Assembly: GCA_021162805.1 (NCBI GenBank)
Contig: JAGGXZ010000200.1
Coordinates: 1 to 64,000 of the forward strand
DNA: 64,000 nucleotides
Reading direction: 5' to 3'
Source: Candidatus Poribacteria bacterium
GTDB taxonomy: Bacteria > Poribacteria > WGA-4E > B28-G17
Numbering within the stretch: the stretch's first letter is position 1; the number at the start of each line of letters is the position of its first letter. Positions 42,470 through 50,138 of this stretch are shown one piece after another. The translations under genes and the position numbers were made by a program. The notes under the pieces are model-generated. The model was not told where the DNA came from and ran no database searches. It worked only from the letters and a program-made list of their open reading frames with translations.

Positions 42470-42498
42470 TTGACAGTTTCTCCCCCTTCTGTTATGCT
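42470..42498 (+). promoter_or_regulatory. promoter of the hydrogenase-metVF operon
   Basis: Consensus TTGACA (42470-42475), a 17-bp spacer, TATGCT (42493-42498). The start would be near 42505, about 30 nt before the ATG at 42535. Confidence 0.7.
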
Positions 42499-42534: not shown

Positions 42535-43422
42535 ATGGTGTCTTCGAAAGTTGTCGAATGTCCTGCCGTCTGGATAGCCGGAGCAAGCTGCTCAGGTTGT
42601 TCGATATCCCTCCTTAACGCCGTGAGTCCCTCGATTAAAAACCTCCTGATCGACCCTGTAATTCCGGGAAAACACGTTAACCTGCGGTTTCACGCCACGA
42701 TTATGGCAGGTCAGGGTGAGCCGGCATTGAAGGTGGTCAGAGATACAGCCGCTCAAAGGGCCGAGGAGTATCTGCTGCTTGTGGAGGGAGCGATACCTAC
42801 GGCTGAGGACGGACTTTACTGCACTATCGGTGAGCTGGAAGGTGAAGAGCTGACCGTAAGGGAAGCGGTGAGCGAGCTCGCTAGATCCGCTTTGGCCATC
42901 ATTAGCGTGGGAACCTGTGCCTCTTTCGGCGGAATACCTTCAGGATCGCCTAATCCGTCGGAAGCTAAATCGGTAAAGGAGGTATTGGAGGAGGAGGGTA
43001 TCTCAAAGCCGGTGATCAACGTCCCGGGTTGTCCACCCCATCCCGATTGGTTAGTGGGCACGATAGCGATGGTGCTTCTCAACGGTCTGCCGTCGCCGGA
43101 CGATCTGGACGGAGCTCTCCGACCCAAAGCCTTTTACGGCAAGCTGATCCACGACAATTGTCCGCGCAGGGCTTATTTCGATTCCGGCCAGTTTGCAAGG
43201 CATACCGGCGAGCCGGGATGCCTGTATGAGTTGGGATGTAAAGGACCCGTCACTTACGCCGATTGCCCGCTGAGATTGTGGAACAACGGTGTTAACTGGT
43301 GCGTGGGTGCTGGCTCGCCATGTATAGGCTGCGTGGAGCCGGGTTTCCCGGATAAACTCCAACCTATGTTTAAAAAGCTGGATGAAACCGCTCTCGAAAG
43401 GTTTAAAATCAGCGTCCGTTAA
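42535..43422 (+). CDS. [NiFe] hydrogenase small subunit, cytosolic type
   Basis: Electron-transfer subunit of an H2-oxidising or H2-forming enzyme. The 295-residue protein has proximal-cluster cysteines in ASCSGCS, GTCASFGG and VPGCPPHP; distal-cluster ligands in HDNCPRR and CLYELGCKGP; and the medial-cluster set from NWCVGAG to CIGCVEPGF. This resembles group 1/2 small subunits with three clusters. There is no twin-arginine signal and no C-terminal membrane anchor, so the enzyme should stay in the cytoplasm. First gene of the operon with the large subunit, maturation protease, metV and metF. Confidence 0.93.
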   Translation: MVSSKVVECPAVWIAGASCSGCSISLLNAVSPSIKNLLIDPVIPGKHVNLRFHATIMAGQGEPALKVVRDTAAQRAEEYLLLVEGAIPTAEDGLYCTIGELEGEELTVREAVSELARSALAIISVGTCASFGGIPSGSPNPSEAKSVKEVLEEEGISKPVINVPGCPPHPDWLVGTIAMVLLNGLPSPDDLDGALRPKAFYGKLIHDNCPRRAYFDSGQFARHTGEPGCLYELGCKGPVTYADCPLRLWNNGVNWCVGAGSPCIGCVEPGFPDKLQPMFKKLDETALERFKISVR

Positions 43423-43453
43423 CCTTCCCAAAGCTTGAAATGGAGGAGCAAAG

Positions 43454-45013
43454 ATGAGCGCTAAGATAACGATCGACCCCGTTACCAGGATTGAGGGTCA
43501 TCTGAGGGTAGAGGCGATCGTGGAGGGCGGGGTGGTGAAGGAGGCCAGATGTTCCGGAACTCTCTTCAGAGGATTCGAGATCTTCCTCAAAGGGAGGGAA
43601 CCGAGGGATGCTCAGAGGATCACCCAGCGGGTCTGTGGGGTTTGCCCAACCGCTCATGCCATGGCCTCCGCTCTGAATCTGGACAGCGCCTTCGGCATAG
43701 CTGACAAGGTCCCTCCTAACGGCAGGATCATCCGCAATTTGATTTTCGGCTCCAACTATCTCCAATCCCATATCCTCCACTTCTATCACCTTGCCGCCTT
43801 GGATTACGTGGATGTGACCGCCATGGCCGATTACGAGGGCGAAGACCCGGAGATGAGATCAGTTAAGGAGTTCGTCTTGAGGGGGGAGCTATCTCCCTTC
43901 GTGCCCAGATACGAGGGAGATTACCGGTTCGAGGGGAAGACGAACCAGGAGCTTGTCCGACATTATCTGATCGCGCTGGAAATGCGACGACTGGCCCAGG
44001 AGATGCTCTCGGTCTTCGGGGGTAAGATGCCCCATAACGCCGCCATAGTCCCAGGCGGAGTTACGGAGCATCCCAGTGTGGATAAGATCGCCGGATTCCT
44101 CTGGAGGCTGAATAGGATCCGTGATTTCATAGACTCCATCTACATCCCGGATATAATCGCCGTCGCAAAGACCTATCCCGATTATCTCCGGATAGGGAAC
44201 GGTCCCGGAAACTATCTCTCATACGGCGTTTTCGACCTGGAGGATGAAAATCCGGACTATGTCACGAGAAAAAGGCTCCATGCTCAGGGAGCGCTGGAGG
44301 GGATGGAAGATCTGAAGAAGCTTGACGTCAGCTCGATCACCGAAAGCGTCAAATACTCTTGGTTCGAATGGAGAGGTGCTGCTCATCCGTCCGAGGAGGA
44401 GACCAAGCCCAATAGGGGAAAGGATGAGGGGTATAGCTGGTTGAAGGCCCCAAGATACGAGGGAAAGGTATACGAGGTGGGTCCTCTGGCCAGAATGTTG
44501 GTTTCATACCATGCCGGGAGGAAACAGGTCAAGAGGATGATGGATGATCTACTGGACGAGCTCAAGGCTGAACCGGTCGCTTTGAACTCAACGCTGGGCA
44601 GACATGCCGCCAGAGCCCTCGAGGCCAAACTCGTGGCCGATAGTATGGCTGAATGGGTTTTACAGCTCAAGCCCGATGATCCGGTCTGCGCCCCATATGA
44701 GGTGCCGCAGGAGGCCGAAGGGATGGGGATCGTGGGTGCTCCAAGAGGAGCGTTGGGACACTGGATCAGGATCAAGGAGGGTAAAATCGAAAGCTACCAG
44801 CTCGTGGTTCCCACTACTTGGAACGCCTCGCCCAGAGATCATCTGGATCAACCCGGCCCGATGGAACAGGCGCTTATGGGAACGAAAGTCAGAGATCCGG
44901 AGAATCCCTATGAGCTGGTGCGTATCGTTCGATCCTTTGATCCTTGTCTCGCCTGCGCTGTCCATACCTTGAATGCCAGGGGTAAAAAATTGGCTGTGGT
45001 GAGGGTCGCCTGA
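43454..45013 (+). CDS. [NiFe] hydrogenase large (catalytic) subunit
   Basis: Carries the NiFe active site. The 519-residue protein has RIEGHLRVEAIV at the N-terminus, the L1 site RVCGVCPTAHAMAS (first two nickel/iron cysteines), and the L2 site SFDPCLACAVH near the C-terminus. A further 18 residues follow the L2 histidine (ending AVVRVA), consistent with a tail removed by the maturation protease encoded next. Hyp assembly factors are not in the window. Confidence 0.95.
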   Translation: MSAKITIDPVTRIEGHLRVEAIVEGGVVKEARCSGTLFRGFEIFLKGREPRDAQRITQRVCGVCPTAHAMASALNLDSAFGIADKVPPNGRIIRNLIFGSNYLQSHILHFYHLAALDYVDVTAMADYEGEDPEMRSVKEFVLRGELSPFVPRYEGDYRFEGKTNQELVRHYLIALEMRRLAQEMLSVFGGKMPHNAAIVPGGVTEHPSVDKIAGFLWRLNRIRDFIDSIYIPDIIAVAKTYPDYLRIGNGPGNYLSYGVFDLEDENPDYVTRKRLHAQGALEGMEDLKKLDVSSITESVKYSWFEWRGAAHPSEEETKPNRGKDEGYSWLKAPRYEGKVYEVGPLARMLVSYHAGRKQVKRMMDDLLDELKAEPVALNSTLGRHAARALEAKLVADSMAEWVLQLKPDDPVCAPYEVPQEAEGMGIVGAPRGALGHWIRIKEGKIESYQLVVPTTWNASPRDHLDQPGPMEQALMGTKVRDPENPYELVRIVRSFDPCLACAVHTLNARGKKLAVVRVA

Positions 45014-45018
45014 GACCG

Positions 45019-45504
45019 ATGAGAAGGATAGCCGTCGTCGGCGTGGGAAACATCCTGATGGGTGATGAGGGGATCGGAGTCAAAGTGGTGGAGGAACTCC
45101 GAAAGGAGAGGCTGCCGGAGGGAGTCGAACTCTTCGACGGCGGCACCGCCTTTCATGTCCTGGTGGACGATCTGATCGATTTCGACAAATTGATCATCGT
45201 GGATGCCGTGCTGGGAGGTGAGCCGCCCGGAACGATCTACCGGTTTGAGTTCGGGGAGCTTGAGGAGATGATCTCGGAGATAACCCTCTCACTCCATGAC
45301 GTTGGCGTAATGGAGGCGTTGATGCTGGAACGGTTGACCCATCGGATCCCTGAGGAGATAGTTTTCATCGGCATTGAGCCGGAGAGGATAGAACTTTCGA
45401 TGGAGCTTTCGTCCATTATGAGGGAGAAATTGCCTGAGCTGGTGGAAAGGGTATTGGATGAGATTAAGCGGGACCGCCCGCTCACCGCTTCTACGAGCGT
45501 CTGA
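45019..45504 (+). CDS. hydrogenase maturation endopeptidase (HyaD/HycI family)
   Basis: Cuts the C-terminal tail of the large subunit after nickel insertion. The 161 residues carry GVGNILMGDEGIGVKVVE (nickel-sensing Asp/Glu), DGGTAFHVL, VDAVLGGEPPG and SLHDVGVMEAL (metal His). It starts 5 nt after the large-subunit gene and 24 nt before metV. Confidence 0.94.
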   Translation: MRRIAVVGVGNILMGDEGIGVKVVEELRKERLPEGVELFDGGTAFHVLVDDLIDFDKLIIVDAVLGGEPPGTIYRFEFGELEEMISEITLSLHDVGVMEALMLERLTHRIPEEIVFIGIEPERIELSMELSSIMREKLPELVERVLDEIKRDRPLTASTSV

Positions 45505-45528
45505 AAAATCGATTAAGGAGGGGCAAGG

Positions 45529-46222
45529 ATGATAATCTCTCAACCGAAGCCGATTGAGGAGATAAAGGAATCGATCTCCGACTTTCAAAAGCTTTTCATC
45601 CTCGCCTGTGGAGGATGTCCGGTTGGATGTAAGAGCGGGGGGAGGAAAGGATAAAAGAGCTTGCCGATGAGCTCGGCCAGGGGGGAAGGATATAACCGGA
45701 AGCGCCGAGATAGACTTCCTCTGTAACAAGGCGCTCGTCGGAACACAGCTCCAGTATCACCTCCCTCAGTTGAAGGAGGCCCAGGCGATCCTGGTCATAT
45801 CGTGCGGTATCGGAGTTCAGGCGGTCGGTAAGATAATCGACCTGCCTGTGATCCCTGCCAACAATACCCTTTCAAGCCAAGGGATGCAGGGATTATGGCC
45901 CTCCGAGGAGAGATGTGCCGGATGCGGGGACTGTGTCCTGCATTTAACCGGTGGGATATGTCCTATTACGGCCTGCTCCAAGAGCCTGCTCAACGGGATG
46001 TGTGGTGGGCAACGTGATGGAAAGTGTGAGGTGGAACCGGAGAGGGATTGTGGCTGGTATCTCATATACAGGCTAAGGGAACTGGGAAGGTTGGATAACC
46101 TAAGAGAGATTCCGCCTCTGAGGGATTACAGGAAACTTGACGTCCCCGGTCCTCAGAGGGTGACAACCCGATGGGCGCTTGAAAAGGCCGAGATCTTTGA
46201 GGCTCCCAACTGGATAGGATAA
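45529..46222 (+). CDS. metV: MetV-like partner of methylene-THF reductase, with two apparent frameshifts
   Basis: The MetV / MTHFR_C protein, an iron-sulfur subunit that feeds electrons to MetF. Frame 1 from ATG 45529 (after AAGGAGGGG) gives KLFILACGGCPVGCKSG. Frame 2 then gives ERIKELADELGQGG, and frame 3 gives KDITGSAEIDFLCNKALVG through ISCGIGVQAVG, CAGCGDCVLHLTGGICPITAC, and NGMCGGQRDGKCEV to the stop. Both shifts are in runs of six G (about 45639 and 45691), and each is repaired by one added G. All expected cysteines are intact, so the gene may be functional with a sequence error or slippage. Between the hydrogenase genes and metF. Confidence 0.82.
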
Positions 46223-46240
46223 CAAGGGAGGAGGTTGACG

Positions 46241-47122
46241 ATGACTAGGTTACAGGAGAGCTTGCAACGGGGGAAATTCGTGGTCACAGGGGAGATCGGC
46301 CCTCCTAAGGGGGTGAATCTGGAGACCGCTTTGAAGGAGGCTTCGTATCTGAAGGGTCGCGTCGTCGCCGTCAACGTCACCGACAACCAGAGCTCCGTGA
46401 TGCGTCTGGGATCGCTGGGGCTGTGCGCGAAGTTGGTCCAAGAAGGTTATGAGCCGATCTTCCAGGTGACGTGCCGTGATAGGAACCGATTGGCGCTTCA
46501 ATCCGATATCCTCAGCGCGTATGTGCTCGGCATTCGGAACGTCCTAGCGCTTACGGGAGATCATACCACGCTCGGCGATCATCCACAATCTAAGCCCGTC
46601 TTCGATCTGGATTCGGTCAGCCTTCTCATGGCTATCTCCTCTCTAAAGGAGGGCAGAGACTTGGCAGGTGAAGAGCTGGACGGAGCGCCAAGTGATATAT
46701 TCCCGGGAGCAACCGTCACGCCCGGAGCCGATCCGCTTGAGCCTCAGATCATAAAGATGGAAAAGAAGATAGAGGCCGGGGCCCAGTTCTTCCAGACACA
46801 GGCAGTCTATGACCCTAAAACGTTCGAGAGATTCATGGATCAGGCCTCTAAGTTCAACGTTCCGGTGCTAGCGGGGATCGTTATCATAAAGTCCCCTGCC
46901 ATGGCCAGATATATGAACGAGAACGTACCAGGGGTTTTCGTGCCGGATTCCATAATCAAATCCCTGGCGGAGGTGCCGAGAAAGGAGAGGGCCAAAAAGA
47001 GCATCGAGCTCATGGCCCAGCTCATCAGAGAGCTGAAGCCGATGTGTCAGGGGATACATATAATGGCGATGGGATGGGAGAGATATGTCCCAGAACTGCT
47101 CGATGCCTGTGATATCAGTTAG
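46241..47122 (+). CDS. metF: 5,10-methylenetetrahydrofolate reductase MetF
   Basis: Flavoprotein reducing methylene-THF to methyl-THF. The 293-residue protein has the family start KFVVTGEIGPPKGVN (catalytic Glu), NVTDNQSS, VLALTGDHTTLGDHP (flavin contact), FFQTQAVYDP and VLAGIVIIKSPAMARYMN. Short form, without the eukaryotic regulatory domain. The ATG at 46241 follows GGGAGGAGG with 6 nt; a TTG at 46235 is less likely. Its place after hydrogenase genes and metV suggests hydrogen or ferredoxin rather than NADH as electron source. The 3' end overlaps the convergent PP-loop gene by 8 nt. Confidence 0.94.
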   Translation: MTRLQESLQRGKFVVTGEIGPPKGVNLETALKEASYLKGRVVAVNVTDNQSSVMRLGSLGLCAKLVQEGYEPIFQVTCRDRNRLALQSDILSAYVLGIRNVLALTGDHTTLGDHPQSKPVFDLDSVSLLMAISSLKEGRDLAGEELDGAPSDIFPGATVTPGADPLEPQIIKMEKKIEAGAQFFQTQAVYDPKTFERFMDQASKFNVPVLAGIVIIKSPAMARYMNENVPGVFVPDSIIKSLAEVPRKERAKKSIELMAQLIRELKPMCQGIHIMAMGWERYVPELLDACDIS

Positions 47123-48293: not shown

Positions 48294-50138
48294 ATGAGGA
48301 GAGGGATAGCTTTGGGATTGACCGTTATGCTCGCGGCAACGCTTCTCATAGCGAATGCCCAGGCCAAGTGGAGCGTGGCTAGGGAGAGCGGAATGCAGGG
48401 TGATGTGGCCGATATCCAGTTCATCGACCAAACTCACGGCTGGATCCTCCTCGCCCAAGGTGAGGTGAGGTATACGACCGATGGAGGGAAAACCTGGAGT
48501 TCCTCCAAAATAGCCACGAATAAAGAACTGCATGATATACATTTCATCGATCGGAATAGAGGGTGGATAGTAGGTGAAAACGGATATATGGTCTACACGA
48601 CGGACGGCGGCAGGACATGGCTTCCGATGAGCAGTGGAACTGTAACCACCCTTTCAGGGGTTTGGTTCGTCGACGAGGAAAACGGCTGGATATGTGGCGA
48701 TGGCGGTACCATAATGCATACATCGAACGGCGGCAAATCGTGGGAGAAACAGGAGACGGGCACGAACTACGAGTTGACGAATATACAGTTCGTATCTCCC
48801 ACAACAGGTTGGGCGGTCGGCGCCGGCGGGACGATACTTCAAACGACGGATGGCGGCAAAACGTGGAAGTTCCGTCCCTCACCCACCGCGTCGCCCCTTG
48901 ACGGGATGTTCATCCTGAACGGAACCACCGGATGGGCGGTGGGGGGAAACGGCGCCATAGTCCGCATGAACGACGGTAAAACCTGGAAGGAGCAGGAAAG
49001 CCACGTGCCAAATACGAACGGAATGCCCGAACCGATATGGGATGTACACTTTATCAATCCGGATCTCGGACTTGCCGTCGCGGAGTTCGGCGTGATACTC
49101 AGAACGGATGATGGAGGCGAGACATGGACCCCATTGAAACCCAGGCCCACCTTCAACAGATTAACGGCGGTTCAGTTCGTAAGCGAGACCGAGGCCTGGG
49201 CGGGCGGCGTTAACGGCACCCTGCTCCATAGCCTCGATGGCGGTAAAACCTGGGATGTCGTCTCCTCCAGCAGCGATCTGACATCGATCTGTTTCGTCAA
49301 CGACAAGGAGGGATGGGCTGCCGGCGTGGCCGGATCCATATACCACACATCCGATGGAGGGAAAACCTGGAAATCACAGTCCAGCAACACGGCCTTCGAT
49401 CTGTTCGACATATTCTTCGTCGATGGGAAAAAGGGATGGGCCGTCGGCAGCAACGGAACGCTCATCGAGACCAAAGATGGAGGGGAAACCTGGAGCAGCG
49501 TCAATAACCCCAGGGATGAGTTCGGCAGAAGGACGCGAAGGATAAAGGCGGACGGAACCATACTCGGACTGGGCCTCTATAGTATCCATTTCCCGACCCC
49601 ACAAAACGGTTGTACTGTCGGCGAGGTGGGAAAGATCCTATACACGGAGGACGGAGGTCAAACCTGGGTCTCCAGAACATCGATGATGGTTTTCAACAAC
49701 CTCTACGCGACCTTCTTCATCTCCCCCACGGTCGGGTGGGCGGCCGGACAGAGCGTCATAATCAAGACGACGGATGCCGGAGCCAACTGGAAACCGACCT
49801 TCATCGGCGATCAGATCAGAGGGATGTTCTTCGTCGATCAGAATACGGGTTGGGCCGTGGGGGTCAACGGCGCCATCCTTCACACCGCGGACGGCGGAAG
49901 TTCCTGGAACGATCAGGTCAGCGGCACGAAGGTCAACCTCTACGATGTGGCCTTCAAAAACGCCAAAGAGGGATGGGCTGTGGGCGATAAAGGCACTATA
50001 CTCCACACCATCGACGGGGGCGTGACATGGCTCACGGAGCCCGCTGTTGTGCAAAATGATCTCCGCGGGGTTTGCATCTCAAAAGATGGAACCGTCTGGG
50101 CCGTGGGCTCCGGAGGGGTGATATTGGTCAACAGGTAG
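48294..50138 (+). CDS. exported YCF48/BNR-repeat beta-propeller protein
   Basis: 614 residues with a signal peptide (about 1-25, LGLTVMLAATLLIANAQA). About thirteen repeats of roughly 40-45 residues follow, each with the pattern D-G-G-x-T-W then F-x-D-x-x-x-G-W-x-V-G-x-x-G-T-I. YCF48 proteins form propellers; plant and cyanobacterial Hcf136 assists photosystem II, but in heterotrophs this repeat is a general extracellular binding scaffold. It has no sorting domain at the end. Ligand and role unknown. Confidence 0.9.
   Translation: MRRGIALGLTVMLAATLLIANAQAKWSVARESGMQGDVADIQFIDQTHGWILLAQGEVRYTTDGGKTWSSSKIATNKELHDIHFIDRNRGWIVGENGYMVYTTDGGRTWLPMSSGTVTTLSGVWFVDEENGWICGDGGTIMHTSNGGKSWEKQETGTNYELTNIQFVSPTTGWAVGAGGTILQTTDGGKTWKFRPSPTASPLDGMFILNGTTGWAVGGNGAIVRMNDGKTWKEQESHVPNTNGMPEPIWDVHFINPDLGLAVAEFGVILRTDDGGETWTPLKPRPTFNRLTAVQFVSETEAWAGGVNGTLLHSLDGGKTWDVVSSSSDLTSICFVNDKEGWAAGVAGSIYHTSDGGKTWKSQSSNTAFDLFDIFFVDGKKGWAVGSNGTLIETKDGGETWSSVNNPRDEFGRRTRRIKADGTILGLGLYSIHFPTPQNGCTVGEVGKILYTEDGGQTWVSRTSMMVFNNLYATFFISPTVGWAAGQSVIIKTTDAGANWKPTFIGDQIRGMFFVDQNTGWAVGVNGAILHTADGGSSWNDQVSGTKVNLYDVAFKNAKEGWAVGDKGTILHTIDGGVTWLTEPAVVQNDLRGVCISKDGTVWAVGSGGVILVNR

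Follow-up and report, generated by a model that had tools for sequence, protein, structure and literature searches.

A non-exported [NiFe] hydrogenase encoded with MetV and MetF in Candidatus Poribacteria and other bacterial phyla: a candidate H2-dependent methylene-THF reductase

Introduction

The in vivo electron donor of the MetVF-type methylenetetrahydrofolate (methylene-THF) reductases has been described as an open question, and ferredoxin in that role would mean a negative ATP yield on H2 + CO2 (PMC8760232). A core of MetV and MetF is common to the acetogen types II, III, and IV, which differ in their partner module, there being none in type II, RnfC2 in type III, and HdrABC-MvhD in type IV (PMC8760232, PMC9430772). 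In the window, by which we mean the whole 64,000-nucleotide stretch of Candidatus Poribacteria DNA analyzed here, this core is instead encoded together with a [NiFe] hydrogenase, raising the question of whether H2 could itself be the donor. A natural hydrogenase-MetVF operon would provide both a candidate electron donor for MetVF and an expressible system.

Methods

Relatives were collected by a scan of species genomes, the best 80 of 109 loci being kept, and MetV was scored as linked when it lay within 4.5 kb of the hydrogenase on the same strand. The truncated Tat-type loci L070 and L071 were excluded from the small-subunit comparisons by a score threshold. Whole-genome checks covered the four single-contig chromosomes that contain a linked operon.

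Results

Five same-strand genes occupy positions 42535 to 47122 of the window (Table 1). Pfam names all five products, with the piece 45770-46222 being the part of MetV that was scanned (PF12225, 107 bits), and NCBIfam names four of the five, this MetV piece having no NCBIfam match. The gene list of an earlier sequence-only reading (hydrogenase small and large subunits, maturation protease, MetV, and MetF) therefore stands, except that metV is not intact. That reading's gaps of 5-31 nt agree with the measured 31, 5, 24, and 18 nt between successive genes, and, as it had also stated, no Hdr, ferredoxin, or NAD module is present among the operon ORFs. Its single promoter is indeed the sole promoter-like site found upstream of the first gene, but remains statistically unproven, since the scanned region gave 5 such sites against 3.3 expected. 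The MetF barrel scores 134.6 bits against PF02219 (cut-off 24), as expected of a MetVF-type (type II core) enzyme; no hdrABC-mvhD of type IV occurs among the operon genes and scanned neighbors, and no rnfC2 of type III among the operon genes and the direct neighbors on both sides.

Table 1. Features of the hydrogenase-MetVF operon, in window positions.
Feature	Position	Strand	Basis or remark
Sigma-70-like promoter, TTGACA-17-TATGCT	42470..42498	+	Consensus match; 36 bp before first gene
[NiFe] hydrogenase small subunit, 295 aa	42535..43422	+	ORF list, Pfam, NCBIfam, PDB match
[NiFe] hydrogenase large subunit, 519 aa	43454..45013	+	ORF list, Pfam, NCBIfam
Hydrogenase maturation protease, HycI/HybD type, 161 aa	45019..45504	+	ORF list, Pfam, NCBIfam
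metV, first frame: N-terminal part bearing the CGGC motif	45529..45654	+	Stop after frame slip near 45637-45650
metV, second frame: short middle segment	45651..45698	+	Slip near 45680-45686
metV, third frame: remaining N-terminal domain and DUF5981 (PF12225)	45686..46222	+	Holds 8 conserved Cys
metF, methylenetetrahydrofolate reductase (PF02219), 293 aa from ATG 46241	46241..47122	+	ORF list, Pfam, NCBIfam

The large subunit matches NF033181 with 705.5 bits (cut-off 600), which places it in the group 1a (HysAB-type) family, an assignment based on profile and PDB matches only; matches to the stricter HysA and small-subunit Hys models fall below the cut-offs of those models. Its matches to periplasmic [NiFe] and [NiFeSe] chains are of nearly the same strength (437 and 433 bits), and by PDB sequence match the nearest solved structure to the small subunit is a [NiFeSe] enzyme. 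The 11 Cys and one His of the small subunit could hold three [4Fe-4S] clusters, whose ligand sets we take by homology to be C19 C22 C128 C166, H206 C209 C229 C235, and C244 C256 C263 C266. As the sequence-only reading had it, this subunit has neither a Tat signal nor a C-terminal hydrophobic anchor: the RRxF motif of Tat-exported, periplasmic group 1a enzymes is absent before the first cluster motif, and there is no alternative start codon between the preceding stop and the called start. The hydrogenase is thus related to the exported HysAB-type (group 1a) enzymes, which the HydDB table gives as periplasmic, but is without Tat signal or membrane anchor, has Cys rather than Sec in both metal-binding motifs (RVCGVC and DPCLAC), and is encoded with MetVF.

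Among the best 80 of 109 relatives, MetV adjoins the hydrogenase in 65 loci, which by record titles belong to 14 phyla, a result contrary to the possibility, raised beforehand as grounds for rejecting an H2-dependent methylene-THF reductase, that most relatives would have the same neighbors minus metVF. Within this same set, 58 of the 65 linked loci have the gene order S-L-(P-)V and 36 have exactly S-L-P-V-F, and 11 of the 15 loci without MetV are Tat-exported enzymes with a different gene order. Part of the family sits in a Wood-Ljungdahl neighborhood: 20 of the 65 linked loci and none of the 15 others (best 80 of 109) are flanked by fhs, folD, fchA, cooS, or acsC. MetV lies beside the hydrogenase with MetF not adjacent in L006 and L069. 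Nearly all members of the family are from metagenome assemblies. No natural fusion of hydrogenase and MetV was noticed; a long frame in L035 is not one, as it starts in an upstream gene and crosses masked (N) sequence.

The export signal follows the linkage closely. Among the best 80 of 109 loci, RRxF is absent from all 55 MetV-linked small subunits that could be assessed and present in 11 of the 12 assessable loci without MetV, the twelfth being L032, whose contig stops 10 nt beyond the large subunit. The 67 non-Tat small subunits extend a median of 27 aa past the last cluster Cys with no hydrophobic stretch, and such a stretch is present in nine of ten Tat small subunits. On the large-subunit tree (84 rows), there is one change of Tat state when L089 is left unscored, and there are two changes of MetV linkage when it is scored; if rightly placed, L089 shows that both states changed more than once. 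Six of 14 lineage-specific small-subunit positions lie near the distal cluster, a weak signature that we do not count as support because its p-value varies from 0.04 to 0.57 with the threshold.

Judged by distance correlations over 53 loci, the small subunit (SSU), large subunit (LSU), and MetV are co-inherited (LSU-SSU 0.836, LSU-MetV 0.796, SSU-MetV 0.782), with LSU-MetF at 0.438 and a maximum below 0.25 in 999 permutations. In one mainly Chloroflexota group MetF is of the canonical type and MetV is still hydrogenase-type. Of the 40 strongest SSU-MetV co-variation pairs, 11 lie near the distal cluster (5.5 expected), but this is not specific, because the SSU-MetF control matches it (13 of 40). 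Structural comparison of MetV was uninformative: a model of the L004 homologue (39 sequences) had a mean pLDDT of 74.7 with a poor C-terminal part, and its fold search against the PDB returned one match, to a generic fold (E 0.001); this protein has no PDB sequence relative at E up to 0.1.

Three of the four single-contig chromosomes have a second MetV and MetF elsewhere and three have FlpD genes, so in most cases routes other than the linked set are possible. In one of the four, the Bipolaricaulota chromosome G062, there is no MetV or MetF match besides the linked pair; in single-contig G060, the linked hydrogenase is the sole PF00374 match over the cut-off. The window's own genome has a second metVF, on contig C123, with no recognized electron module directly adjoining, and its sole FlpD (MvhD-type) match is on contig C64, apart from both MetV genes. 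A separate complete electron module dedicated to MetVF would have spoken against a direct connection, and on this point the outcome is mixed.

The metV region of the window (45529-46222) is read in three successive frames, with the slips at or just beyond two six-G runs (45637 and 45680), and its longest listed ORF, 45770-46222, is mainly the C-terminal domain. In most relatives metV is a single open frame. The 95%-complete genome shows no CdhC and only a sub-threshold match to CdhD, though the relatives G001 and G005 have both. Given the broken metV and the failure to find an acetyl-CoA synthase gene, the window copy may be decaying, and the module may be inactive in this particular genome. 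That the operon is here a relic, its metV a pseudogene and the pathway it served lost, is a serious possibility, although we do not favor it, and it would be compatible with our explanation of the family as a whole. The remaining four operon frames are open, all codons for the 11 metV Cys invariant in 39 relatives are present across the three frames, and the large-subunit dN/dS is about 0.09 against the nearest relative, G001 (332 codons; dS near saturation), though this ratio speaks more for the past than for the present. Assembly errors could also explain slips at two G runs of one gene, yet the window has 21 G or C runs at least six nucleotides long, at least one of which (43881, in the large subunit) lies inside an open frame.

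Discussion

We consider it probable that the operon's products form a soluble cytoplasmic H2:methylene-THF oxidoreductase in which the small subunit hands electrons to MetV, and MetV to the MetF flavin. H2 would be split at the large subunit's [NiFe] site, the electrons would cross the three small-subunit iron-sulfur clusters to the iron-sulfur protein MetV, and MetV, as the adaptor linking hydrogenase and reductase, would deliver them to the flavin of MetF, which would reduce methylene-THF to methyl-THF. From the comparative data we infer an active physical complex with direct electron transfer, operating in the direction of H2 uptake. The potentials of H2 (-414 mV) and methylene-THF/methyl-THF (-200 mV; PMC8760232) span a calculated -41 kJ/mol or so. 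Cells with the cluster probably use H2 directly for a key carbon-fixation step, because the cluster pairs a non-exported hydrogenase with MetVF and recurs widely in uncultured bacteria. With somewhat less assurance, we lean towards recognizing a fifth methylene-THF reductase type: a soluble, dedicated H2:methylene-THF oxidoreductase, composed of a non-exported hydrogenase and a hydrogenase-specific MetV adaptor, found in some 14 bacterial phyla, partly beside fhs and folD, and the sole methylene-THF reductase in at least one genome. If this is true, H2 would drive the final reduction in the methyl branch, with neither NADH nor ferredoxin involved.

Adjacency could instead mean co-regulation with a carrier in between, because purified MetVF enzymes take electrons from reduced ferredoxin in vitro (PMC8760232). 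The hydrogenase would then reduce ferredoxin or flavodoxin as a soluble carrier, and metVF would share its operon only through a common role in the Wood-Ljungdahl pathway, to which the genes flanking 20 of the 65 linked loci lend some weight. We regard this as unlikely, given that the window operon has neither a ferredoxin gene nor a bifurcating subunit, that large-subunit distances are tracked better by MetV (0.80) than by MetF (0.44), that MetV is retained where MetF is of another type, and that without bifurcation H2 (-414 mV) reduces ferredoxin poorly. Of the two directions considered in the sequence-only reading, H2-dependent methylene-THF reduction is well supported by comparative genomics, and release of H2 from methyl-THF oxidation, as in syntrophic acetate or methyl-group oxidation, is very improbable: [NiFe] hydrogenases are reversible in vitro and many of the organisms bearing the operon presumably live in anoxic, syntrophy-prone settings, but the reaction (-200 vs -414 mV) would be about 214 mV uphill at standard conditions and, as we estimate, would remain uphill even at 1 Pa H2 (about -266 mV), and the operon has no energy-coupling subunit.

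Direct H2-dependent reduction by a hydrogenase-MetVF unit would resemble in principle the H2-dependent CO2 reductase (HDCR), in which a hydrogenase is coupled to a C1-reducing enzyme from the same pathway; HDCR differs in hydrogenase, reductase, and reaction. The adjacency itself is real but already published: in one sentence, Shoemaker et al. (2024, PMC11287216) place HysAB beside MetVF, as here, in two Ca. Bipolaricaulia OTUs, and they suggest that the hydrogenase may supply electrons for methylene-THF reduction. In its passages on this subject, that paper takes up neither the Tat contrast nor a hydrogenase-linked group of MetV proteins nor phyla beyond this one, and our literature search found no paper on the spread of the linkage, the Tat contrast, or this MetV group. 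In the Ech1 cluster of Thermoanaerobacter kivui, hydrogenase genes accompany two small proteins resembling the MetV N-terminus, but the hydrogenase is membrane-bound and Ech-type, and MetF is not named in that description (PMC4320612). The electron partner of Chloroflexi group I hydrogenases was called unclear in 2013 (PMC3971608), and the hydrogenase-MetVF operon offers a role for them; it is carried by Chloroflexi bacterium RBG_13_51_36 (L041), which, going by its name, appears to be RBG-1351 of that study.

Operon structure in the window

The five genes of the hydrogenase-MetVF operon, encoding the small subunit (SSU), large subunit (LSU), maturation protease, MetV, and MetF (order S-L-P-V-F), are separated by gaps of 31, 5, 24, and 18 nt and match PF14720 and PF01058, PF00374, PF01750, PF12225, and PF02219. 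The gene set, strand, and short gaps of the sequence-only reading were thereby confirmed, but not metV as a single open gene: it is spread over three frames, slipping at or just past two six-G runs. An intact relative's MetV recovered two pieces in the window, 72% and 63% identical, and all 11 Cys invariant in 39 MetV relatives are still encoded. The breaks stem either from misassembly or from a recent decay of the gene into a pseudogene, and this operon copy may be broken.

The LSU exceeds the NF033181 cut-off (705.5 bits vs 600) and scores about equally against solved [NiFe] (437 bits) and [NiFeSe] (433 bits) chains; its metal-site motifs hold Cys and no Sec, and the solved structures nearest to the SSU are [NiFeSe] hydrogenases.

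Coordinates of features in the window and of the second metVF pairs in two genomes
Feature	Position	Details
Promoter-like site	window 42470	TTGACA-17-TATGCT; 5 sites in scanned stretch vs 3.3 expected
Operon	window 42535-47122	five genes, one strand
metV, frame pieces	window 45529-45654, 45651-45698, 45686-46222	
Six-G runs in metV	window 45637, 45680	
PF12225 match of MetV	window 45770-46222	
YCF48/BNR-type repeat protein	window 48294-50138	614 aa, just beyond the operon's convergent neighbour
Second metV-metF, window's own genome (contig C123)	L097:2508-5718	DUF1847 gene downstream, TauE-type gene upstream
Second metV and metF, Dehalococcoidales chromosome record G060	L161:4942-11201	

Distribution of the linked loci

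A scan of genome contigs with the window LSU returned 109 relatives, the best 80 of which were analysed, all annotated by phmmer; queries were the proteins of the window together with the other MetV-MetF pair encoded in the window's own genome. In 65 of these best 80 loci (hereafter linked), a same-strand MetV lay within 4.5 kb; the order was S-L-(P-)V in 58 of the 65 and exactly S-L-P-V-F in 36. By record titles, the linked loci among the best 80 span 14 phyla (Chloroflexota 29, Planctomycetota 9, Aerophobota 6, Spirochaetota 5, and Latescibacterota 3; Armatimonadota, Elusimicrobiota, Nitrospirota, and Bacillota 2 each; Thermodesulfobacteriota, Poribacteria, Lentisphaerota, Myxococcota, and Bipolaricaulota 1 each); because all 65 are titled as metagenome assemblies, phyla with one locus may be binning errors. 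Two linked loci (L006 and L069) lack an adjoining metF although the sequence runs on, MetF genes being present elsewhere on the L006 chromosome; the remaining linked loci without metF have less than 2 kb of sequence beyond the LSU. In four Chloroflexota loci (L010, L014, L015, and L023), the gene immediately upstream of the hydrogenase encodes a divergent MetV, and MetF is of the canonical type; another MetV lies about 4 kb downstream, with a MetF after it in three of these loci. By-eye inspection of L010 also showed a large GltD/HdrA-like gene and regulators.

Among the 15 loci without MetV, 11 have an SSU with a twin-arginine (Tat) export signal, placed downstream or on the opposite strand, four of them (L012, L043, L070, and L071) with less than 1.7 kb of sequence past the LSU. 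Contigs end less than 700 nt from the LSU in L065, L074, and L076, where no SSU was seen, and 10 nt past it in L032.

Export signal and cellular location

The Tat signal, scored as an RRxF motif ahead of the first cluster motif, was found in 0 of 55 assessable MetV-linked SSUs (10 of the 65 linked loci were not assessable) and, where MetV is missing, in 11 of the 12 loci that could be assessed; only L032 lacks it there, and its contig ends before any MetV linkage could show. The motif is also present in L089, the second hydrogenase of the related genome G005, with no MetV in the 1.5 kb of sequence covered. All 67 non-Tat SSUs (the linked ones, the window, L032, L084, and L085) have a short tail past the last cluster Cys and no hydrophobic stretch; nine of ten Tat SSUs, L089 excepted, have a hydrophobic C-terminal stretch.

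On a tree of 84 LSUs, a quick, unrooted build with SH-aLRT support only, Tat state changes once with L089 unscored and MetV linkage changes twice with L089 scored, L089 standing on a long branch of uncertain position. One starred clade of 14 unites the 11 Tat loci with the three truncated ones. The unrooted tree fits loss or gain of Tat; we read the linked hydrogenases as derived by loss, since the HydDB table otherwise assigns group 1a to the periplasm.

Co-inheritance

Distance correlations, which still contain shared genome ancestry, were computed for the 53 loci that encode all four proteins and in which MetV starts at most 1.5 kb from the LSU end, a rule that leaves out the L010-type loci; the window was represented by its C-terminal MetV piece only. 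Values were 0.836 for LSU-SSU, 0.796 for LSU-MetV, 0.782 for SSU-MetV, 0.754 for MetF-MetV, 0.501 for MetF-SSU, and 0.438 for LSU-MetF, the largest of 999 permutations remaining below 0.25 for every pair. Canonical MetV (C123, L037, L039, and L055) sits on a long, well-supported branch apart from hydrogenase-linked MetV, with weak inner support. A mainly Chloroflexota group, including two Nitrospirota loci and one Myxococcota locus, has canonical-type MetF while retaining hydrogenase and MetV; since the LSU tree does not clearly unite these loci in a single clade, MetF may have been exchanged more than once. What is inherited as a unit is SSU, LSU, and MetV.

Proposed reaction and relation to described enzymes

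The window SSU has twelve cluster ligands and the MetV C-terminal domain 8 conserved Cys; MetV is predicted to bind two [4Fe-4S] clusters (PMC9430772, available text), and MetVF enzymes contain FMN (PMC8760232, available text). An unbroken electron path would lead from H2 through the SSU clusters, the MetV clusters, and FMN to methylene-THF, and the span between the potentials of -414 and -200 mV (PMC8760232, available text) computes to about -41 kJ/mol. The proposal of a cytosolic, H2-dependent methylene-THF reductase is partly supported: linkage across phyla favours it, but the residue-level evidence sought for contact was weak or not specific.

Methylene-THF reductases have been divided into four types, and the available text of the two sources gives none of them a hydrogenase as a direct subunit (PMC8760232; PMC9430772). 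Sporomusa membranes carry out H2-driven methylene-THF reduction, modelled by the authors with a periplasmic hydrogenase and Hdr proteins (PMC9430772, available text), and hdrABC-mvhD-metVF occurs in marine Chloroflexi (Sewell et al. 2017; PMC5736913, available text). The hydrogenase-MetVF adjacency itself is already published for one lineage: Shoemaker et al. (2024; PMC11287216) reported that HysAB adjoins MetVF in two OTUs of Ca. Bipolaricaulia and suggested electron donation. A non-exhaustive literature search covering few subscription papers found, in the text available, no account of the family across phyla, of the contrast in Tat signals, or of the hydrogenase-linked MetV group. Taken as a whole, the family is a strong candidate for a fifth type of MetVF methylene-THF reductase, one linked to H2.

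Pathway context and genomes

With proteins from linked loci, recognised by eye, as queries, fhs, folD, fchA, cooS, or acsC was found in the sequence flanking 20 of the 65 linked loci vs 0 of 15 others, with fhs-folD immediately ahead of the hydrogenase in several Phycisphaerae loci. Hydrogenases in the chromosome records were sought by PF00374, the [NiFe] large-subunit family. The Bipolaricaulota chromosome record G062 has no PF12225 or PF02219 match besides the linked MetV and MetF, but further PF00374 matches exceed the cut-off besides the linked enzyme. G060 has a single PF00374 match over the cut-off, the linked enzyme; its second metV and metF have NuoE/NuoF/NuoG-like genes and two genes for response regulators nearby (phmmer, by eye), possibly an NADH-fed MetVF variant. 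The chromosomes G058 and G061 each have a second MetV and MetF; an FlpD search of G061 gave no match.

The window's own genome, 95% complete, carries the linked operon and the second metVF on C123, a pair whose immediate neighbours include no recognised Hdr, Rnf, or hydrogenase gene. Further PF00374 matches over the cut-off lie on contigs C156, C16, and C154, those on C156 and C16 resembling group 3d and 3b enzymes (gene order, by eye). Formate-THF ligase is present; the search for acetyl-CoA synthase gave no CdhC and a CdhD match below the cut-off. Both CdhC and CdhD are present in the relatives G001 and G005.

The LSU was matched in 6 of 58 genomes searched, its own included, and closely only there and in G001 and G005. 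On the LSU tree the window groups with G001, next to Latescibacterota and Spirochaetota, and G005, of the window's class, stands apart. The LSU and MetV of the G005 locus recur in L020, a record titled Candidatus Poribacteria, which makes Poribacteria the probable source of the window. On contigs C243 of G001 and C885 of G005, FlpD (MvhD) genes adjoin metV, as expected for Hdr-type MetVF.
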